This document shows, piece by piece, positions 11,075 through 29,922 of a DNA stretch of 37,211 bases. Numbering within the stretch: the stretch's first letter is position 1; every line of letters begins with the position of its first letter. The stretch lies in the NCBI GenBank assembly GCA_007130355.1, contig SLSQ01000050.1:1-37211 (forward strand), given 5' to 3'. The notes beneath the pieces were generated by a model. The model ran no database searches. It was not told where the DNA came from and saw only the letters and a list, made by a program, of their open reading frames with translations. Both the position numbers and the translations under genes were made by a program. The stretch is from Trueperaceae bacterium. Lineage in GTDB: Bacteria; Deinococcota; Deinococci; Deinococcales; Trueperaceae.

Positions 11075-12043
11075 ATGTTCTCGCACATCCTGGTTCCACT
11101 CGACGGGTCGAAGCTCGCGGAACGCGTGCTTCCGCACGTCCGCGCGTTCGCTCGCCTGAACGGCGCCCGCGTCACCCTCGCCCACGTCCTCGAACCGCCC
11201 ACCCTGGCCGGTCGGCGCGAGCCGACCGATCCGGTCCGGTGGCAACTCGCGGCGCACGAGGCCGAGCGGTACCTCGCCGACGTGCGCGACCGGCTCGGGA
11301 GCGACGTCTCTTCGGCCGAGTGCCGGATGTTCGAGGGGCGAACGGCGTCCAACATCGTCGGGTTCGCCCAGTCGGAAGCGGTCGACCTGATCGCGCTCGG
11401 CAGCCACGGCGAGGGCGGCCTGACGGGCTGGAACCTCGGCGCGACCGTGCACAGCGTCGCGCTGCACGCCCGAACGAGCGTGCTGATGGTGCGTGCCTAC
11501 GGGGCCGCCCCGAGCGCGGACGCACCGTCGCGCTACCGGCGCCTGCTGGTCCCGCTCGACGGCTCGCGCCGTGCCGAGATCGTCCTGCCGACCGTCCACG
11601 GACTCGCCGACGGCCACCGGTGCCGTCTGATGCTGGCGCACGTCGTCGAGCGCGCACCCAGCGCGAGCCGCTTGCCGCTTCCGGAAGCGGAAGCGGGCCT
11701 CGAGCGACGGTTCCTCGAGATGCGGCGACGGCGAGCCGAGCGGTACCTCGCCACGGTCCGAGAAGAACTTGCGGGCGTCGGCCACGACGTGGACGCGCGC
11801 ACGGAGATCGACGGCGACACCGTCGCCCGGCTCCACGACCTGGCGGACGCCGAAGACGCCGATCTCGTCGTCGTCAGCGCCCACGGCGCGTCCGAGAGCC
11901 ACCGGTGGCCGTTCGGCAGTTCGGTGCTGAACCTCCTCGTGTACGGCACCACGACGCTCCTCGTGGTCCAGGACCTGCACGGGCACGAACTGGTGCCCAG
12001 CGCCGCAGAGATCGCGGCCCAGGAACGGCACGGCCACGGATGA
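11075..12043 (+). CDS. Tandem universal stress protein (two UspA domains)
   Basis: 322 codons made of two UspA domains. Domain 1 (1-147) starts ILVPLDGSKLAERVLP and contains GSHGEGGLTGWNLGAT; domain 2 (about 153-305) starts LLVPLDGSRRAEIVLP and contains SAHGASESHRWPFGSS. Both fit the G-x2-G-x9-G(S/T) nucleotide-binding motif, so ATP binding is likely in each half. UspA proteins modulate stress survival, often by binding partners. No membrane segment is seen. ATG 11075 follows a strong Shine-Dalgarno. Its TGA overlaps the start of the giant glucan synthase (ATGA), so it may serve as a regulatory partner of that enzyme. Confidence 0.93.
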   Translation: MFSHILVPLDGSKLAERVLPHVRAFARLNGARVTLAHVLEPPTLAGRREPTDPVRWQLAAHEAERYLADVRDRLGSDVSSAECRMFEGRTASNIVGFAQSEAVDLIALGSHGEGGLTGWNLGATVHSVALHARTSVLMVRAYGAAPSADAPSRYRRLLVPLDGSRRAEIVLPTVHGLADGHRCRLMLAHVVERAPSASRLPLPEAEAGLERRFLEMRRRRAERYLATVREELAGVGHDVDARTEIDGDTVARLHDLADAEDADLVVVSAHGASESHRWPFGSSVLNLLVYGTTTLLVVQDLHGHELVPSAAEIAAQERHGHG

Positions 12044-15000
12044 GCCACCACGACCGGGCCTCGGGGGACGACGGCCCGGCACGCGACGCACCGCCCGAGG
12101 AGGCCGGAAGGGCGCGCGCGACCGCCCACCCGGTCGTGGCGCGACCGCGCCGTGCGCACCGGGCCGTCCGCCGGTCGGCGCCCCTCCGCGAGCGAATCCG
12201 TGCCGTGTTCGACGCCCTTCCGGTCGAGCCGTCCGCCCTGTCCTCGCGCACGCAGTGGCTCCTCGACAACGACTACCTGATCCTGCGGGCCCTGCGTCAG
12301 ACCGAGGACGACATGCCGCGGGCCTACTACGCGACGCTGCCCACGCTGGCGAACGGCACCCCGCGGGTCGAGGCGCTCGCGGGCGCGATCGTGGCGTGGA
12401 GCGAGCACCGGCTGGACCTGGCGCGGGTACGCCGCTTCGTGGAGGGACACCAGGAGGTGGCGCCGCTCACCCTCGGGGAGCTGTGGGCGCTGCCCACCTT
12501 CCTGCGGATCGTGGCGCTCGAATCGCTCGCCGAAGCGGCTCCGAACGCGCACGAGGCGGCCCGGGTCGAGGTCGAACACGACGAGACGCTGCCGGCGACG
12601 ATCCTGTCCCTGCACGCGCTCGACACGCACGATTGGACCGCGTTCGTGGAGGCCACGAGCCTCATCGAACGTCGCCTCCGCCAGGATCCGGCGGGAGCGT
12701 ACCTCCGCATGGACGAAGCGACGCGCGACCGCTACCGAGCGACCATCGAACGGCTCGCCGTGCGCTCCGGCCGCAGCGAGGAGGCGGTCGCGGCGGAAGC
12801 CGTGGCCCTGGCGAGGTCGGCGGCCGCCCGACCGGACGGGCGCCCCGAACGCGCGCACGTGGGGGCGTACCTGATCGGGTCGGCCGTATCGGAGTTCGAG
12901 CGGACGGTGGGCGCCCCGCCGACGCTCCGCATGCACCTCGAGCGTGGCGCGCGCCGCTGGGCGGCGCCCCTGTACGCGGCGGCCACGTCGCTCCTCGCCG
13001 TCCTCCTGATCGCGGCGACGACGGCCGTCGCGCTCCGTTGGGGCGCGCGCGTCGAGGCGCTGGCCCTGACGGCCGCCGTGGCGGTCCCGGCGTGGGTCGC
13101 GGCGGAGGCCGCGCTGCGCCGGCTGGTGACGCACCTCCTCCCGCCCACGCGGCTTCCGAAGCTCGAGCTTCGCGCCGGCGTGCCGCCCGACGCCCGCACG
13201 CTGGTCGCCGTGCCGGCGCTGTTCACGAGCGAAGCGGGGATCCACGATCTGTTCGCGAGGATCGAGCGGCACTACCTGGGACACCGCGATCCGCGTCTCG
13301 CCTTCGTGGTCCTGGGCGACGTGCCCGACGCCGCCGACCGGGTCGTGCCCGAGGACGCCGCCCTGCTGGACCGGGCCGAGGCCGAACTCGCCGCGCTCCG
13401 GGCCCGGCATCCCGAGGGGCGGTTCCTGCTGCTGACGCGGGAGCGGCGCTGGAACGCGTCCGAGGGCGTCTGGATGGGCTGGGAGCGCAAGCGCGGCAAG
13501 CTCACCGAACTGAACCGGCTGATCGTGCACGGCGTGCGCGGCGGCTTCCTGTTCCACGGCGACCGCGCCGAAGCGTTCGCCGGGTTCCCGTTCGTGATCA
13601 CGTTGGACGCCGATACGGTGCTTCCCCCAGGCAGCGCCTTCCGCCTGATCGGCACCCTCGCGCACCCCCTGAACCGGGCTTCGTTCGACGCGGCGAACCG
13701 TCTGCGGCACGGCTTCACGATCCTGCAGCCCCGGATCGAGGCCCACCCCGACGATGCCGACCGGACCCGGTTCGCACGGCTCTTCTCGCACGGCCGAACC
13801 GTCGATCTGTACGCGCACGCGGTGTCCGAGCCGTACATGGACCTGTTCGGCGAAGGGATCTACGCCGGGAAGGGCATCTACGACGTCGCGGCGTTCGAAC
13901 GCACGGTCGGCGACGTTCCTCCGGAGAACGCGATCCTCAGCCACGACCTGCTCGAGGGCGGGCTGGGCCGCGCGGGCCTCGTGAGCGACGTCGTCGTGCT
14001 CGAGAGCCAACCCCAGCACTACCTCGCCCACGCGCGGCGGCTGCACCGGTGGATCCGGGGCGACTGGCAGCTCCTCCCCTGGGCCGGCCGGCGGGTGCCC
14101 GGCCCCGAAGGACGCGTGCCCAATCCGTTGAGCCATACGGCACGATGGGTGCTTCGGCAGAACCTGGTGCGCAGCCTGCACCCTCCGTCCCTGCTGGCGC
14201 TGTTCGTCGTGGGGTGGACCGTCGCGCCGGGTCCGGCGTGGGCCTGGACCGGGCTCGCGCTCGCCCTCTCGGCCGCACCGTTGCTGCAGGTACCCCGGGC
14301 CCTCGTGCGCCTGGCGCGGCCCCGTCGCGCGGCCCGGCTCCCGCACGCCGCGGATCGGGACCTGCTCCGCTGGGCGGTCGACCTCGCCTTCCTCGCCCAC
14401 GCCGCCTGGGTGGCCGCGGCCGCCGTGACGACCACCCTCTGGCGCCTGCGAGTCTCGCGCCGGCACCTGCTGCGCTGGACGGAGTCGTCGCAGGACGCGC
14501 GGGACGCCTCGCGTCGCCGGAACGCGCTCGCACGCTGGCGTGCCATGAGCGCCGCCCCCCTCGCCGCCACGGTCGTGGGCGCGCTGATGCTCGGGGCGCG
14601 CCCCGAAGCGTGGCCGGTCGCCGTCCCGTTCCTGCTCGCCTGGGCCCTCTCCCCCCAGCTCGCGTACCTCCTGGATCGTCCCGTCCCGATCCAGGACCGG
14701 GCGCTGACCCCGGAACGGCGGCGCTGGCTGGCCACGATCGCGCGGAGGACCTGGCTCTACTTCGAACGGTTCATCGGGCCGGACGATCACTGGCTCCCGC
14801 CGGACCACTTCCAGGAGTCGCCGCGCGGCGAGGTCGCGCACCGCACCTCCCCCACGAACGTCGGGCTGCTGCTCGCGACCACCGTCGGCGCCCACGATGC
14901 GGGCTACCTGGGGGCGCGCGACCTGCTGCTCCGCCTCGGCAACACGTTCGCGACGCTGGACCGGCTGGAACGCCACCGCGGCCACTTCCTCAACTGGTAC

Positions 15001-18000
15001 GACACCCGCACCCTCCGGCCGCTGCACCCGAAGTACGTCTCGACGGTCGACAGCGGCAACCTCCTCGGCCTCCTCGTGGTGGTGCGGCAGGCGTGCCTCG
15101 AGGTCCCGGACGGCACGGTGCTGCGCTGGCGCCGGTTCGACGGCCTCCGCACCCTCGCGGACCTCCTGAAGGAAACGGTGGAGACGCTCGAGGACGACGG
15201 CGAACTCACGCGCTCGATCGTCGCCTTCCGGGAGCGGATCGACCGGACCGAAGGCCGGCCGGAGCGGTGGTCGCCGCTCGTCGACGAGCTGGCGTCGGAG
15301 GCCCTGCCCGAGCTCGAGCGGACCCTCCTGGAGCGCGTGCGTACCGCGGCCGGCGGCGTCGGGCACGAACGACTCGCCGACCTCGGCATCTGGTTGGGGC
15401 GCCTGCAGCAGCAACTGGACACGATGCGGGACGGACGCGACGCCCTGCTCCCGTGGCTCCGGCCCGACGCCCGCGTGTCGGCGCTCGATCCGGTCGTGGA
15501 CGAGATTCCGCTGCAGCTCGCCTTCCGCGACCTGCCCGCGGCGTACCGGACGATCCGCGAGGCGTTGGACGCGCTCGCACCGGCGAACGCCGTGGAGTCC
15601 GCACGCCGGACGCGCTTGCGCTCAGCGCTGGACGCGGCCGACGAGGTCGCCGAGCGTATCCGTCGGGACGCCGATGCGGTCGCGGCGAACGCCGAGAGGA
15701 TCCTGCAGGAGACGCACGTCGACTTCCTGTTCGACACGGAACGAAAGCTGTTCCGCATCGGCTACCACGTCGACGACGACCGCGAGGACGTGCACGCGTA
15801 CGACCTGCTGGCCTCCGAGGCCCGCATCGCCTCCTTCATGGCGATCGCCCTCGACCGGGTGGCGCCCGAGCATTGGCTCCACCTCGGTCGGCCGACGGCG
15901 CTGGTGGACGGTCGGCAGGTGCTCCTGTCGTGGAGCGGCACGATGTTCGAGTACCTGATGCCGACCCTGTTCATGCGCACCCCCGAGCGCAGCCTCCTGG
16001 CGCACGCCTGCCGCACGGCGATCGACCGCCAGATCGCCTTCGGCAGGGCGCACGGCGTGCCCTGGGGAACCTCCGAATCGGGCTACGCGCGCACGGACGC
16101 GCAGGAGAACTATCAGTACCGTGCCTTCGGCGTGCCCGACCTCGCCCTCTCCCACGAGGCGACCGGCCGTCAGGTCGTCGCGCCGTACGCGACGCTGATG
16201 GCGCTGCCGTGGACGCCGCACGAAGCGGCCGAGAACCTCGAGCGGCTGGTCGCGGCCGGAGCCATGGGGCGCTACGGCTTCTACGAGGCCCTGGACTACG
16301 CGCACGCGCGTCTGGCGCCCGGCGAGCGCTACACCGTGGTGCGGTCGTTCATGGTCCACCACCACGGGATGGCCTTCATGGCGCTCTGCAACCTGCTGCA
16401 CGACGGCCGCTTCGTCGAACGCTTCCACGCCGACGCACGGGTCCGGACGCACGAGGTGCTGCTCTACGAGGGCCTCGCGCCGGGCCCGCCCGACGAACGG
16501 ATCGAACGGGACGAACGCACGGAGGATCCGCGACCGCGCTTCCACGCTCCGCCCGTCGAGCCTTGGGAGGTACCGGTCCGCACCCGCAGCCCCGAGGTGC
16601 ACGCCCTCTCCAACGGCCGCTACACCCTCTTCATGAGCAACTCGGGAGCCGGCGCCAGCCGCTGGGAAGGACTGGACCTGACGCGCTGGCGCAGCGACCC
16701 GACCTGCGACGCGTGGGGCCAGTGGATCTACGTCCAGGACCTCGACCTGGACCGGACCTGGTCGGCGACCCCGAAACCGGTCGACGCCCCAGGCCAGCAC
16801 CCGCGGGTGACGTTCCATCCCCACCAGATCACCTTCCACCGTCGGGACGGGGACGTGACCACGCGCCTCGAGGTGATCGTCCCGCCCCAGGACGACGCGG
16901 AGATCCGCCGCGTCACCCTCGTCAACCACGGGGACTCGGTCCGACGCCTGGCCGTGACCAGCTACGGCGAGGTCGCCCTGGCCCCGCACGGCGACGACCT
17001 GCGCCATCCCGCGTTCGCCAAGATGTTCGTCGAGTGCTCGTGGCGCGCCGAGGACGACGGGCTGCTGTTCCGCCGTCGCCTGCGCAGCACGACCGACGCG
17101 CCCGCCTACCTCGTCCACCGTCTGGTCCACGATCGCGGCGCGCACCCGCCGCCGGAGATCGAGACCGACCGGGAACGGTTCCTCGGCCGTCACGGCCACC
17201 CAGGGGATCCCGCAGGACTGCGCGCGACCCGACTCTCGGGCACGCTCGGCGCGACGCTCGATCCGGTGTTCGCCCTGCGCACGCGGGTCGAGATCCCGGC
17301 CCACGCCACCGTGCGCCTGTCGTTCGTGACGGCGGCCGGTGGTTCGGCCCGCACCGTGCTCGACGTAGCGCACCGCTACGGACGCCGGGACCGGATCGAG
17401 GCGGCCTTCCTGGACGCCGCCGCGCGGCAGGGCCAGGTGGCGGCCCAGGTGGGGCTCGACGCGGCCGAGTCGGCCAGCGCGGACCGGCTCCTCTCCCGCC
17501 TGCTCTACCCCGACGCCGCGACACGCTCCGACGCCGCGATCCTGCGGAGCAACGTCTCGGGCCCGTCGGGCCTGTGGGTGCACGGCATCTCCGGCGACCA
17601 CCCGATCGTGCTGCTGCGCCTCCGTACGGAGGAGGACGTCGCCACCGTCCGCACCCTCCTGAAGATCCATCGCCTCTGGCGCAGCCAACGCTTCGTCGTG
17701 GACCTCGTGGTCCTCAACGAACTGGACCGTGGGTACGTCCAGACCACGCGCGACGCGGTCCGGCGGCTCGTCGTCGCCGCTGGCGACGAGGTCTGGCAGG
17801 ACCGGCCCGGCGGCATCTTCCTGCTGTCGTCGGCGCAGTTGGACGAGGCCGGCCGGGTCCTGCTCCAGTCGGCGGCCCGGGTGGTCGTGAACGTCGGCGA
17901 CGGATTCGTGCTCGCTCCGTTCCCGAGCGCCCCGGAGGACGGCCTGCCGGCCCTCGCTCCGTCGCACCACCGGCCCGACGCCGCGCCGGACACGCCTCCG

Positions 18001-20457
18001 CTCCCGCGTCCGACCGACCTTCTGTGCGACAACGGCTGGGGCGGCTTCTCGCCGGACGGCCGCGCCTACGTGACCTACCTGCAGGAGCAGGCGACCCCCG
18101 CGCCCTGGATCAACGTCCTGGCCAACCCGGACTTCGGCTGCCTGATCAGCGAGTCCGGTTCCAGCACGACCTGGTCGGCCAACAGCGGCGAGAACCGGCT
18201 GTCGCCGTGGTCCAACGACCCGGTGGCCGATCCCAGCGGCGAGGTGCTCTACCTGCGCGACGAGGAGACCACCGAGACGTGGACGCCCACCCCGCAGCCG
18301 ATGCCCGGCGGCCTTCCGTACCTCGTGCGCCACGGGCAGGGACGCACCACCTTCGAGCACCGCAGCCACGGCCTCGATCAGCGCATGGAGGTGTTCGTGC
18401 TGGACGACGCTCCGGTCAAGGTCGTCCGCCTGCGCCTCTCGAACCTGCTGACGCGGCCGCGACGCATCACGGCGACGTACTACCTCGAGTGGGTGCTCGG
18501 CCATGCGCGCGAGACCAGCGCCACGAGCGTGATTCCCGAATACGACGCGGACCTGGGGGCGCTGCTGGCGCGCAATCCGTTCCGCGACGCCTACGCCGGG
18601 CAGGTCGCGTTCCTGGCCGGGAACCGGAGCCCGCACGGCGTCACCTCCGACCGTCGGGAGTTCCTCGGTCGCGACGGCAGCACGCGACGGCCGGCGGCGC
18701 TGCGGCGGATCGGCCTGTCGGGCCGCGTCGAGGCGGGAAGCGATCCGTGCGCCGCGCTGCAGCTCCACGTCGACCTGGCGGCCGGCGCGAGCGACGAGGT
18801 CGTGTTCCTCGTGGGGGTGGGCGAGGACCGCGAGGAGGCGAAGGAGCTCGTGCGTCGGCACCGCAGCAGCGAGGCGGTGGCCCTGGGCCTCGAGCGGGTG
18901 ACGGAGGCCTGGGAGCGACGTCTCGGGACGATCCACGTGCGGACGCCCGACCCGTCGATGGACCTGATGCTGAACGGTTGGCTGCTGTACCAGAGCCTCG
19001 CCTGCCGCATGTGGGGCCGGACCGGGTTCTACCAGTCGAGCGGAGCGTTCGGGTTCCGCGACCAGCTGCAGGACTCGATGGCGCTGCTGCACGTCGATCC
19101 GGCCACCGCCCGCGCGCAGCTGCTGGAGGCGGCGCGCCACCAGTTCGAGGAGGGCGACGTGCTGCACTGGTGGCTCCCGCACGAGGGCCGCGGCGTGCGG
19201 ACCCGCATCTCGGACGACCTGGCCTGGCTCCCGTTCGTGACGGCGCACTACGTCGACGGGAGCGGCGACGCGGCGGTCCTGGACGAACGGGTGCCGTTCC
19301 TGCACGCGCCGGAGCTCGGACCGGACGAGCACGAACGTTTCGACCGTTTCCCCGCGACGGACGAGTCGTTCCCGCTCTACGTCCACGCCTGCCGCGCCCT
19401 CGAGCGAGCCGCCACCCAGGGCGCGCACGGCCTTCCGCTGATGCAGGGAGGGGATTGGAACGACGGCATGAACCGGGTCGGGGTCGAGGGACGCGGCGAA
19501 AGCGTGTGGCTGGCCTGGTTCCTGATCGCGACCCTGGAGCGGTTCGCGCCGCTGTGCGACGCGCGCGACGAGCCGCACCGCGCCGAGCGCTACCGTGAGC
19601 AGGCGGGCGCCTACCGACGCGCCATCGAGGCGCACGCCTGGGACGGCGATTGGTACCTCCGCGCCTTCTACGACGACGGTACGCCGCTCGGCAGCCACGC
19701 GGGCGACGACGCGCGCATCGACGCCATCGCGCAGGCGTGGTCGGTGCTGGCGGGACCGACCGACCCGGAACGCAGCGCTCGGGCGATGGCCTCGGTGCAC
19801 GAGCACCTGGTGCGCGACAAGGACGGGCTGGTGCTGCTCCTGGCCCCGCCCTTCGACCGGGGTCGGCACGATCCCGGCTACATCAAGGGGTACCCGCCGG
19901 GCGTACGCGAGAACGGGGGGCAGTACACGCACGCCGCGCTCTGGTTCGCCTGGGCGTGCGCCGCGTCCGGCGACGGAGACCGGGCCCACGATCTGTTCGG
20001 TCGGCTCAACCCGCTGCGGCACGCCGCCGACGCCGCCTCGGCCGCGCGCTACCGGCTGGAGCCGTACGTCGTGGCCGCCGACGTGTACGGGGTCGCTCCG
20101 CACGCCGGCCGCGGCGGCTGGAGCTGGTACACCGGCTCGGCGGCGTGGATGTACCGGCTGGGCGTCGAGGCGATCCTCGGCCTGCGGCGCGAGGGGACGT
20201 CGCTGGCGTTCGAACCGTGCATTCCGGCGGCGTGGCCCGGCTTCGAGATCCGGTACCGCTACGGCGCCACCGAGTACCGGATCCAGGTCGTGAACCCGGA
20301 CGGGGCCACCCGCGGCGTCGTCGGGCTCGAGCTCGACGGCGTCGCTCTGCCCACCCTGCGACTGCCGCTGGTGGACGACGGCGTCGCGCGTTCGGCGATC
20401 GTGCGCATGGGCGCCTCGGGTGCGTCGGGACCGATGGGAACGGCGGGCGCGGCGTAG
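12040..20457 (+). CDS. ndvB: Cyclic beta-1,2-glucan synthase (GT84-GH94)
   Basis: 2805 codons, near the roughly 2800 of NdvB/ChvB. It polymerises beta-1,2-glucan from UDP-glucose, trims and cyclises it at the inner membrane. Order: cytoplasmic N-terminus; hydrophobic segments about 305-360; glycosyltransferase domain with DADT (D523, D525) and HRWIRGDWQ (about 668); further hydrophobic segments about 710-880; glycoamylase-like domain about 900-1480 (GTSESGYARTDAQENYQYRAFG; VRSFMVHHHGMAFMAL); two beta-sandwich regions beginning SNGRYTLFMSNSG (about 1522) and NGWGGFSPDGR (about 1997); and the GH94 catalytic barrel with DQLQDSM and GGDWNDGMNRVG (D2472, D2475). ATG 12040 overlaps the stress-protein stop as ATGA; the frame back to 11239 is antiparallel noise. 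Product may be periplasmic osmoadaptive or surface glucan. Confidence 0.95.
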   Translation: MSHHDRASGDDGPARDAPPEEAGRARATAHPVVARPRRAHRAVRRSAPLRERIRAVFDALPVEPSALSSRTQWLLDNDYLILRALRQTEDDMPRAYYATLPTLANGTPRVEALAGAIVAWSEHRLDLARVRRFVEGHQEVAPLTLGELWALPTFLRIVALESLAEAAPNAHEAARVEVEHDETLPATILSLHALDTHDWTAFVEATSLIERRLRQDPAGAYLRMDEATRDRYRATIERLAVRSGRSEEAVAAEAVALARSAAARPDGRPERAHVGAYLIGSAVSEFERTVGAPPTLRMHLERGARRWAAPLYAAATSLLAVLLIAATTAVALRWGARVEALALTAAVAVPAWVAAEAALRRLVTHLLPPTRLPKLELRAGVPPDARTLVAVPALFTSEAGIHDLFARIERHYLGHRDPRLAFVVLGDVPDAADRVVPEDAALLDRAEAELAALRARHPEGRFLLLTRERRWNASEGVWMGWERKRGKLTELNRLIVHGVRGGFLFHGDRAEAFAGFPFVITLDADTVLPPGSAFRLIGTLAHPLNRASFDAANRLRHGFTILQPRIEAHPDDADRTRFARLFSHGRTVDLYAHAVSEPYMDLFGEGIYAGKGIYDVAAFERTVGDVPPENAILSHDLLEGGLGRAGLVSDVVVLESQPQHYLAHARRLHRWIRGDWQLLPWAGRRVPGPEGRVPNPLSHTARWVLRQNLVRSLHPPSLLALFVVGWTVAPGPAWAWTGLALALSAAPLLQVPRALVRLARPRRAARLPHAADRDLLRWAVDLAFLAHAAWVAAAAVTTTLWRLRVSRRHLLRWTESSQDARDASRRRNALARWRAMSAAPLAATVVGALMLGARPEAWPVAVPFLLAWALSPQLAYLLDRPVPIQDRALTPERRRWLATIARRTWLYFERFIGPDDHWLPPDHFQESPRGEVAHRTSPTNVGLLLATTVGAHDAGYLGARDLLLRLGNTFATLDRLERHRGHFLNWYDTRTLRPLHPKYVSTVDSGNLLGLLVVVRQACLEVPDGTVLRWRRFDGLRTLADLLKETVETLEDDGELTRSIVAFRERIDRTEGRPERWSPLVDELASEALPELERTLLERVRTAAGGVGHERLADLGIWLGRLQQQLDTMRDGRDALLPWLRPDARVSALDPVVDEIPLQLAFRDLPAAYRTIREALDALAPANAVESARRTRLRSALDAADEVAERIRRDADAVAANAERILQETHVDFLFDTERKLFRIGYHVDDDREDVHAYDLLASEARIASFMAIALDRVAPEHWLHLGRPTALVDGRQVLLSWSGTMFEYLMPTLFMRTPERSLLAHACRTAIDRQIAFGRAHGVPWGTSESGYARTDAQENYQYRAFGVPDLALSHEATGRQVVAPYATLMALPWTPHEAAENLERLVAAGAMGRYGFYEALDYAHARLAPGERYTVVRSFMVHHHGMAFMALCNLLHDGRFVERFHADARVRTHEVLLYEGLAPGPPDERIERDERTEDPRPRFHAPPVEPWEVPVRTRSPEVHALSNGRYTLFMSNSGAGASRWEGLDLTRWRSDPTCDAWGQWIYVQDLDLDRTWSATPKPVDAPGQHPRVTFHPHQITFHRRDGDVTTRLEVIVPPQDDAEIRRVTLVNHGDSVRRLAVTSYGEVALAPHGDDLRHPAFAKMFVECSWRAEDDGLLFRRRLRSTTDAPAYLVHRLVHDRGAHPPPEIETDRERFLGRHGHPGDPAGLRATRLSGTLGATLDPVFALRTRVEIPAHATVRLSFVTAAGGSARTVLDVAHRYGRRDRIEAAFLDAAARQGQVAAQVGLDAAESASADRLLSRLLYPDAATRSDAAILRSNVSGPSGLWVHGISGDHPIVLLRLRTEEDVATVRTLLKIHRLWRSQRFVVDLVVLNELDRGYVQTTRDAVRRLVVAAGDEVWQDRPGGIFLLSSAQLDEAGRVLLQSAARVVVNVGDGFVLAPFPSAPEDGLPALAPSHHRPDAAPDTPPLPRPTDLLCDNGWGGFSPDGRAYVTYLQEQATPAPWINVLANPDFGCLISESGSSTTWSANSGENRLSPWSNDPVADPSGEVLYLRDEETTETWTPTPQPMPGGLPYLVRHGQGRTTFEHRSHGLDQRMEVFVLDDAPVKVVRLRLSNLLTRPRRITATYYLEWVLGHARETSATSVIPEYDADLGALLARNPFRDAYAGQVAFLAGNRSPHGVTSDRREFLGRDGSTRRPAALRRIGLSGRVEAGSDPCAALQLHVDLAAGASDEVVFLVGVGEDREEAKELVRRHRSSEAVALGLERVTEAWERRLGTIHVRTPDPSMDLMLNGWLLYQSLACRMWGRTGFYQSSGAFGFRDQLQDSMALLHVDPATARAQLLEAARHQFEEGDVLHWWLPHEGRGVRTRISDDLAWLPFVTAHYVDGSGDAAVLDERVPFLHAPELGPDEHERFDRFPATDESFPLYVHACRALERAATQGAHGLPLMQGGDWNDGMNRVGVEGRGESVWLAWFLIATLERFAPLCDARDEPHRAERYREQAGAYRRAIEAHAWDGDWYLRAFYDDGTPLGSHAGDDARIDAIAQAWSVLAGPTDPERSARAMASVHEHLVRDKDGLVLLLAPPFDRGRHDPGYIKGYPPGVRENGGQYTHAALWFAWACAASGDGDRAHDLFGRLNPLRHAADAASAARYRLEPYVVAADVYGVAPHAGRGGWSWYTGSAAWMYRLGVEAILGLRREGTSLAFEPCIPAAWPGFEIRYRYGATEYRIQVVNPDGATRGVVGLELDGVALPTLRLPLVDDGVARSAIVRMGASGASGPMGTAGAA

Positions 20458-20470
20458 GGCGACGGCGGAC

Positions 20471-20504
20471 GCTTACGCCGCGCTTACGTGACCTGGCCTA
20501 CCTT
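20471..20504 (+). promoter_or_regulatory. Promoter with 11-bp-period direct repeat (PHO-box-like) and -10 TACCTT
   Basis: GCTTACG occurs at 20471-20477 and again at 20482-20488, giving 7-bp repeats separated by 4 bp. The second copy ends 10 bases before the -10 hexamer TACCTT (20499-20504), and no -35 is present. Two direct repeats on one face of the helix, at this distance from -10, are how PhoB/OmpR-family activators replace the -35. The regulator is not identified. Confidence 0.5.
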
Positions 20505-20612
20505 GGGAGCGCATCGCGCCGAAGGTGGGCACGTGCGCGGCGTGCGCCCTGGACCCGGACCGGGCGGCGCCGGCGGCGGAGATCCGACAGGTGCGGAGGG
20601 GTCGCGCCCGCC

Positions 20613-20717
20613 ATGCGGGAGGTCCGTCACTACTACGAGGGGGCGTACGAGTCGATCGCCGAGGAGAGGCCGTACTTCAACGACCAGCGGCTGTTCCACG
20701 AGACCGCCTCGTTCTGA
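20613..20717 (+). CDS. Small acidic/aromatic protein, 34 aa
   Basis: ATG 20613 to TGA 20717. The peptide runs MREVRHYYEGAYESIAEE and ends NDQRLFHETASF. I do not recognise it. Nearly every third codon position is G or C, as in the real genes here, and the composition (Tyr, Phe, Glu, Asn) is unlike GC-rich noise, which favours real coding. GCGGAGGGG lies about 12 bases upstream, a long spacing. In another frame, GTG 20525 opens a stretch beginning MGTCAACALDPDR with a C-x2-C pair and equally high third-position GC, reaching into this ORF. A frameshift or overlapping pair could make one longer protein of about 60 residues. The upstream direct-repeat promoter would drive either. Confidence 0.5.
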   Translation: MREVRHYYEGAYESIAEERPYFNDQRLFHETASF

Positions 20718-20784: not shown

Positions 20785-20790
20785 TACCGT
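20785..20790 (+). promoter_or_regulatory. -10 box (TACCGT) of the VTT-domain gene
   Basis: TACCGT ends 9 bases before the ATG at 20800. No Shine-Dalgarno lies between them, consistent with a leaderless or near-leaderless mRNA. Confidence 0.5.
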
Positions 20791-20799
20791 GGACCCGTC

Positions 20800-21540
20800 A
20801 TGGCCGCCGACGCAGACCCGTCCGATTCCGACCGACCCCACCAGGCCGCCCGCGGACGCGTCCCGCGCGGCCTGGTCGTCGGCGCCTGGGCGGTCGTCGT
20901 GGCAGCGTTCTGGGCGACGGTCCTGGCGACCGACGGCGGTCCGCTCGACACGCTCGCGGCCGGACTCGACGTCGCCGCTGCCGGAGCCTGGGCGCCGTGG
21001 GCCTTGCTCGCTGCCTACGCGCTTCGGCCGCTGCTGCTGATCCCGATCACCGTGATCAACCTGGCCAGCGGGTTCTTCCTGGGCGCCTGGCCGGGGCTGG
21101 CGGTCGCCATGACGGGAACGCTCCTGTCCGCCTCGATCGGCTACGGCCTCGGGGCCGGCTTGCGTTCGTCCCACGACGTCGAACGGTGGGCCGGTCGCTG
21201 GCGGTTCGTCACGATGCTGCGCCGCCGCGGGTTCGAGAGCGTCGTCGCCGGCGGGCTCATGTACCTCCACGCCGACATGGTGAACCTTCCGGCGGGCCTT
21301 CTGCGCATTCCGGTCCCACGCTTCCTGGCGGGGATCGTGATCGGGAACGCGCTCATGTTGACGACCGCCGTGCTGACCGGGGCGGCGGTCGACGGAACGC
21401 TCGCGGACGCCCGGTTCGAGGTCGACGTCGGCTTGCTGGCGGCGGCGGGCGCCCTGTTCGCGTTCAGCCTCGCCCTGGCCGCTGTGCTCCGCAAGCGGCT
21501 GCGGCCGGTTCCGCACGAGGCGCCTGGACCCGGCGCCTGA
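20800..21540 (+). CDS. TVP38/TMEM64 family (VTT-domain) membrane protein
   Basis: 246 codons. A polytopic inner-membrane protein related to DedA. The VTT core is visible as PLLLIPITVINLASGFFLG followed by WPGLAVAMTGTLLSASIGYGLG (about 80-125), with a re-entrant-type G/F-rich segment. Other hydrophobic stretches lie at about 23-43, 145-165, 173-195 and 208-230. DedA/VTT proteins have been linked to lipid scrambling and envelope homeostasis; this one cannot be assigned a substrate. ATG 20800 was chosen from the nearby TACCGT and the start of the hydrophilic N-terminus. The frame upstream overlaps the 34-aa ORF and is not coding. Confidence 0.85.
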   Translation: MAADADPSDSDRPHQAARGRVPRGLVVGAWAVVVAAFWATVLATDGGPLDTLAAGLDVAAAGAWAPWALLAAYALRPLLLIPITVINLASGFFLGAWPGLAVAMTGTLLSASIGYGLGAGLRSSHDVERWAGRWRFVTMLRRRGFESVVAGGLMYLHADMVNLPAGLLRIPVPRFLAGIVIGNALMLTTAVLTGAAVDGTLADARFEVDVGLLAAAGALFAFSLALAAVLRKRLRPVPHEAPGPGA

Positions 21541-25552: not shown

Positions 25553-26134
25553 ATGGCGTCGTCGTCCTCGCCTCGTGCACGCGCCCGTCGTCGCGGGTTC
25601 CCCTACCGCGTCGCGAGCGGGGCCGTGGCGTTCCTCGCCGTCGCCGCCACGGCGTGCGTGCCGGCACACGATGCGTTCGACCGTCCGAGCCCGACCGTCC
25701 CGCACCACGACCGCGTCCGCAGCGGCGCCGATCGCCCCGCCGGACCTGCTACCGTCGACGGGTCCCGGAGGCACGCTCCGCCGCACCGACGGTCCGCACA
25801 TGGAAGGACGGTGACGCACCCGATGCCGCACGAACCGAACGCCGCCCCGAACGGCGGCGACCTCCTCGAGTCCTACGTGATCGATCGGATCGAGGACGGG
25901 GCCTGGGCGGTGCTCGAGGATCCGCACGGCCGTACGATCGACCTGCCGCGCGCCTGGCTCCCGACGGACGCCGAGGAGGGCACGACCGTCCGCATCGAGG
26001 TGGTCCACGAGGCCGACGGCTCCTCCACGCACCGCTGGACGATCGACGTCGCCGCCGGGCGGGAGCGGTCCGAACGGATCCGGTCGCTCCGGGACGCGCT
26101 GAAGCGGGCACCGTCCGGCGACCTCGACCTTTGA
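25553..26134 (+). CDS. DUF3006-domain protein, with possible lipoprotein-like N-terminus
   Basis: 193 codons in the long form. The last roughly 90 residues are a DUF3006 domain (YVIDRIEDGAWAVLEDP; IDLPRAWLP; EGTTVRIEV), a small domain usually encoded next to ComEC-type hydrolases, as here. The N-terminus has a basic stretch, a hydrophobic segment (VASGAVAFLAVAATAC) and a Cys near residue 35, resembling an export or lipoprotein signal with a weak lipobox (ATAC). Codons between about 25740 and 25810 lose third-position GC, so part of the frame may be non-coding. The DUF3006 protein could then start at GTG 25811 or ATG 25823 behind GGAAGGA. The stop overlaps the next gene (TTGA). Domain sure, start unsure. 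Confidence 0.65.
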   Translation: MASSSSPRARARRRGFPYRVASGAVAFLAVAATACVPAHDAFDRPSPTVPHHDRVRSGADRPAGPATVDGSRRHAPPHRRSAHGRTVTHPMPHEPNAAPNGGDLLESYVIDRIEDGAWAVLEDPHGRTIDLPRAWLPTDAEEGTTVRIEVVHEADGSSTHRWTIDVAAGRERSERIRSLRDALKRAPSGDLDL

Positions 26135-29722: not shown

Positions 29723-29797
29723 CCGGACTGCGGCCGTTCAGCGCGGCTCCGGGCCGGGCGTCCGGAACAGCACCTCCCGAGCGAAGCGATCGGTCCA

Positions 29798-29816
29798 CGC
29801 CGGCCCGAAGCCGGCG
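29798..29816 (+). terminator. Short hairpin downstream of the FAD oxidoreductase
   Basis: CGCCGGC (29798-29804), loop CCGAA, GCCGGCG (29810-29816), in the 247-base gap before the DUF302 gene. A minus-strand 28-codon frame crosses it (29824-29738), but it has no ribosome-binding site. Confidence 0.4.
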
Positions 29817-29922
29817 CGCAGCATGCCCGCCGCAGCGCGGGGCGGACCGTCCCCTCCGCTTCGAACCCCGTGCTGGACGCGGTCCGGCGCCGCCGGTCTC
29901 CGTCCACAGGCATACCCCCCAC

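Follow-up and report, generated by a model that had tools for sequence, protein, structure and literature searches.

A putative orphan microprotein gene behind a predicted, reversed OmpR/PhoB-type site, and two predicted promoter grammars, in the Trueperaceae

Introduction

Is a 34-codon open reading frame (ORF) in a GC-rich intergenic gap a gene, and does the tandem repeat ahead of it belong to its promoter? The locus lies in contig SLSQ01000050.1 of a Trueperaceae bacterium, and by "window" we mean the whole stretch of DNA analyzed, 37,211 nucleotides long. A preliminary description of the window had proposed that the repeat marks a PHO-box-like promoter and that the ORF might be joined by a frameshift to a second, upstream frame. 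Here we examine the ORF, the repeat, and the promoters of related genomes that carry similar repeats.

Results

The Gap and Its Features

The gap is 342 bp long, with an NdvB-like gene on one side and a VTT gene on the other. The features discussed below are the following:

12040-20457, + strand: NdvB-like ORF (cyclic glucan synthase type), very large; start approximate, named by eye from the sequence
20470-20477, + strand: first copy of the repeat, CGCTTACG
20481-20488, + strand: second copy, CGCTTACG, at an 11-bp period
20472-20488, - strand: CGTAAG-N5-CGTAAG, the repeat site read on the opposite strand, a match to the YGTAAG element; that strand lacks a -10 after it
20499-20504, + strand: TACCTT, candidate -10, 10 nt after the second copy
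20525-20611, + strand: C-x2-C frame with a GTG start; coding signal not above chance
20595-20601, + strand: GGAGGGG, Shine-Dalgarno-like, 11 nt 5' of the ATG at 20613
20613-20717, + strand: 34-codon ORF (ATG 20613, TGA 20717), probable microprotein gene
20785-20790, + strand: TACCGT, candidate own -10 of the VTT gene
20800-21540, + strand: VTT-domain membrane protein (PF09335), the gene after the gap

In a synteny comparison, the NdvB-like/VTT neighbor pair was absent from every relative fetched. Close VTT homologs mostly lie a short distance behind another membrane-protein gene, and the NdvB-like neighbor is 53-58% identical to its counterparts in same-genus genomes (67% for the best in the family). 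No terminator was found, RNA structure is not better than that of shuffles (z -0.53 and 0.20), and Rfam returned nothing at the locus, the only match being a tRNA elsewhere. A DNA search with the gap within the genus gave short GC-rich matches only.

The 34-Codon ORF as a Probable Gene

The GC content of the three codon positions in the 34-codon ORF is 0.59, 0.35 and 0.97, which confirms the nearly complete third-position GC noted before. With codon usage modeled on the NdvB-like and VTT genes, its coding log-odds come to 25.8 bits. The null was a set of 2000 simulated gaps (order-2 Markov, 342 bp each) with a 95th percentile of 7.0, and not one of them scored as high as the ORF. A six-frame segment scan likewise finds an isolated coding segment between the neighbors (20601-20714), which extends approximately from the ATG to the stop. 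The window contains 209 non-genic ORFs of 25-60 codons, counted from start to stop, and the 34-codon ORF is by far the best of them per codon (0.76 bits versus 0.48 for the next); in total score it is narrowly exceeded by a single longer ORF (27.4 bits over 57 codons). The Shine-Dalgarno-like GGAGGGG stands 11 nt from the ATG, a spacing that is long, still possible. By its codon statistics, then, the ORF is probably coding, i.e., a small-protein gene. The six-frame scan gives two other short isolated segments that are weakly coding, at 25598-25735 (+ strand, 17.4 bits) and 29759-29833 (- strand, 12.4 bits).

We searched for relatives of the 34-mer in 39 family genomes and 111 genomes of the order and class, in a genome-contig collection (exact 8-residue stretches), and in phages, plasmids, PDB, Pfam, NCBIfam and PHROGs, and found no homolog in any of them. 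Weak matches in two genomes (G028 and G069) were rejected: they lie within PilM- and PurQ-like genes, and either the frame or the strand is not that of the gene. The preliminary description had counted a lack of homologs in related genomes against its proposal, and on this point the searches go against it. For the ORF as a gene the missing homologs are weak contrary evidence, because the relatives are distant and a 34-mer easily drops below detection. The peptide does resemble a stretch of Zincin_1 (PF06262), RxVxxYYGSFxxIAExxPxF, ranking 2 of 2001 against shuffles for a family that was picked post hoc. Since Zincin_1 was selected for matching, we take the likeness to be accidental, or a lead at best. 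A Pfam search of the 34-mer returned neither Zincin_1 nor any other match, and the HExxH metal site of Zincin_1 is absent, the ORF stopping before that position. An AlphaFold model that shows the peptide as two strands is of low confidence (mean pLDDT 68, pTM 0.29) and not interpretable.

The Tandem Repeat and the Family's PHO Box

The heptamer GCTTACG is present twice at an 11-bp period (20471-20477 and 20482-20488), as first reported, and its full repeat unit is the 8-mer given above. Also borne out are the position of TACCTT, a weak -10, at 10 nt from the second copy and the lack of a TTGACA-type -35 upstream of it. Sites of the OmpR/PhoB family are laid out in this way, as a direct repeat with an 11-bp period just 5' of a hexamer resembling a -10. 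A 7-mer repeated at lag 11 with TANNNT 6-14 nt further on occurs at one place in the window (counted in two registers) against a mean of 0.025 in 40 simulated windows (forward strand), a post hoc figure, the features having been chosen in the preliminary description. The exact GCTTACG-N4-GCTTACG has a single occurrence in the 2.5-Mb genome, and with up to two mismatches it is not commoner than its control (11 versus 12 matches).

Is this repeat a PHO box? For comparison we took 31 PstS-type genes from family genomes, the source genome's included, and obtained a motif from their upstream regions by seeding with the consensus followed by refinement. The motif G[CA]TGACA-N4-C[CA]TGACA is common to 22 of the 31 regions, with TGA invariant in both halves in 22 of 22. 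In all but one of these boxes (21/22) exactly 9 nt separate the second 7-mer from a following TANNNT. The distance to the -10 played no part in finding the motif, and it therefore supports the motif independently. The PHO promoter grammar of the family is thus [CA]TGACR-N5-[CA]TGACR-N9-TANNNT (loci L116-L142). The source genome's pstS is outside the 22; the matrix scan missed its box, probably through a wrong ORF start, and a pattern search finds the box as CTGACGTGGGCCTGACG-N9-TACCCT (L145), which fits the family rule.

The window site shares several features with PhoB-activated promoters: two 7-mers in direct repeat at an 11-bp period, a nearby -10, no -35, and orientation on the gene strand. 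It scores 8.9 on the PHO matrix, second of approximately 74,000 window positions, where the pstS boxes reach 16.2 or more. It differs from them in that both halves read CTTAC instead of [CA]TGAC, with T replacing the invariant G each time, and in that its -10 lies at 10 nt and not at 9. No phosphate gene was found near it. Judged from the sequence and by the rule that holds in the family, the window repeat is not a PHO box, as it breaks two defining features.

A YGTAAG Element in the Family

The half-site of the window repeat recurs in the family. The pattern CTTACR-N5-CTTACR has approximately 110 distinct sites, the window site included, in 25 of the 39 family genomes (L146-L248), compared to eight matches for the reversed control. 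Read on the opposite strand, as YGTAAG-N5-YGTAAG, these sites have a characteristic relation to a -10: a TANNNT follows at 10-11 nt in 65 of the 110 (42 at 11 nt and 23 at 10 nt), versus approximately 1.3 sites at any other distance. Examples are L161:1501-1517, L197:1506-1533 and L231:1511-1527. Some sites carry further copies of the half-site on the same 11-bp register, and L151 (G012:C1:185422-185460) has four tandem CTTACR copies at this period. The predicted element YGTAAG-N5-YGTAAG-N10/11-TANNNT has the anatomy of a promoter activated by an OmpR/PhoB-type regulator, and it differs from the PHO box. The preliminary description was thus right about an OmpR/PhoB-type layout. It had also counted a lack of further copies against its proposal, and this applies in part: the source genome has no further exact copy, but in the family almost identical boxes stand before pilin and stress-type genes. 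The PHO identity, with the G and the spacing broken, does not stand.

By Pfam, the genes behind YGTAAG promoters include type IV pilins and pseudopilins, CheY-like and OmpR-family response regulators, MsrA, DUF255, UPF0176, a ClpC-like protein, a lytic transglycolase-type protein and others. Individual assignments are fallible in these GC-rich genomes, because the gene behind each site was taken as the longest downstream ORF. The PilA4-type pilins, with the general character of genomes in the order, would fit a Deinococcota lineage close to Truepera. An OmpR-family regulator gene has a YGTAAG box in front of it (L221 and L228), and this gene is a candidate for the YGTAAG regulator, through possible self-control. 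Similar half-sites are found in OmpR-family direct repeats: the PmrA-type box is CTTAAN-N5-CTTAAN and the CpxR-type box is GTAAA-N5-GTAAA. These belong to other organisms, and the period of the CpxR-type box is 10; the similarity is one of resemblance only. We found no published description of the YGTAAG element or of the family PHO motif in the literature searched.

In the source genome the element is present twice (control: 0), compared to approximately 0.2 per genome expected from the control count; in four genomes of the genus, CTTACR-N5-CTTACR has no exact match. The second site of the source genome lies in front of an oligopeptidase-like gene (type assigned by eye) and has the standard -10. 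The window site has two perfect half-sites at the 11-bp period (CGTAAG-N5-CGTAAG, - strand), identical in these respects to the element, but the microprotein ORF is on the opposite strand. On its YGTAAG strand there is no TANNNT at 10-11 nt and no gene; what follows there is the NdvB-like gene in antisense, entered from its 3' end. Over all sites, a forward TANNNT at 8-11 nt from the CTTACR boxes is not above chance. From these matches, the window site is more likely a real, oddly placed putative binding site than a product of chance.

A related arrangement is conserved in three related species (L203, L208 and L210), where CTTACG-N5-CTTACG-N9-TAACGT precedes a secreted propeller-type protein (identified by eye). 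Its half-site is that of the window and its orientation is forward as well; its spacing, at 9 nt, is PHO-like.

Discussion

The explanation we put forward is a free-standing 34-codon gene, lineage-specific in our searches, behind a predicted upstream OmpR/PhoB-family site with YGTAAG half-sites, a site not of PhoB; we hold it tentatively, at somewhat less than an even chance. RNA polymerase would start near 20511 from TACCTT, and the regulator site would then cover approximately -41 to -23. Since the site is reversed with respect to the usual activating arrangement of the element, the regulator would be likelier to block or modulate the forward start at TACCTT than to recruit polymerase. The transcript would carry the 34-aa peptide, translated from the ATG at 20613, and may continue into the VTT gene. 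It is tempting to go further and place the microprotein, via this reversed site, under the OmpR-type regulator that would serve the family's type IV pilin and stress-type genes, but this fuller version is quite unlikely on present evidence.

The ORF itself is best read as a probable orphan microprotein gene, with a remnant or chance as possible alternatives. Like orphan bacterial small proteins (at most 50 aa), the 34-mer is short and has its own start and gene-like codon use; it differs from them in having no homolog and in being known from sequence alone. It could instead be the leftover of a longer, decayed gene between the neighbors, with gene-like codons and no useful product. The lack of homologs and the unconserved neighbor pair, which suggests a young gap, agree with such decay, as does the weak Zincin_1 likeness; however, this likeness was a post hoc choice, the Pfam search was negative, and the coding signal begins at an ATG with a Shine-Dalgarno-like sequence and finishes at the stop. 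We regard decay as unlikely, if still worth keeping in mind. The frameshift raised in the preliminary description would yield a protein of approximately 60 residues, by a +1 shift or an assembly indel near the GGGG at 20598-20601, and drew on a similar codon bias in the C-x2-C frame. The GC3 of that frame is indeed high (0.93-0.95) and its coding-like stretch stops near the start of the 34-mer, but its overall GC is also high, and its score over 29 codons (2.7 bits to 20611, 6.5 bits when cut at 20590) is below 7.0, the 95th percentile of a null made for 34-codon ORFs. The second frame is thus without a significant coding signal, the 34-mer has a start and a GGAGGGG of its own, and a scan of the genome-contig collection with the fused query found no fused relative; a joined protein is highly improbable.

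With regard to the repeat, a variant PHO box that places the ORF under phosphate control could explain the strand and the period, which are those of PHO boxes, and the second-best matrix position in the window. The forward CTTACG pair with 9-nt spacing in three related species also speaks for it. Set against these are the change of the invariant G to T in both halves, the -10 at 10 nt where 21 of 22 boxes have 9, the source genome's own pstS, which obeys the rule, and the failure to find a phosphate gene nearby, and we consider a variant box improbable. Could the repeat and the ORF both be chance features of a GC-rich gap? They were selected post hoc, the forward -10 arrangement occurs at the chance rate, and the ORF has no relatives. 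Such an accident is nevertheless rather unlikely given that the ORF score appeared in none of the 2000 simulated gaps and that the half-site pair occurs twice in a genome for which approximately 0.2 are expected.

The window itself offers a putative orphan microprotein only, and the interest of these results lies mostly in the two promoter grammars. With the PHO and YGTAAG rules for a little-studied family, regulons in uncultured relatives become predictable and testable.

Small unnamed proteins of approximately 59-72 aa lie directly behind YGTAAG promoters at L219, L230, L231 and L241, some of them conserved between two genomes. At L214 (G024:C114, approximately 19308-19324), a standard YGTAAG promoter faces a VTT-family gene from its 3' end, and behind the promoter no ORF reaches 50 aa; this putative promoter could be the source of an antisense or small RNA.
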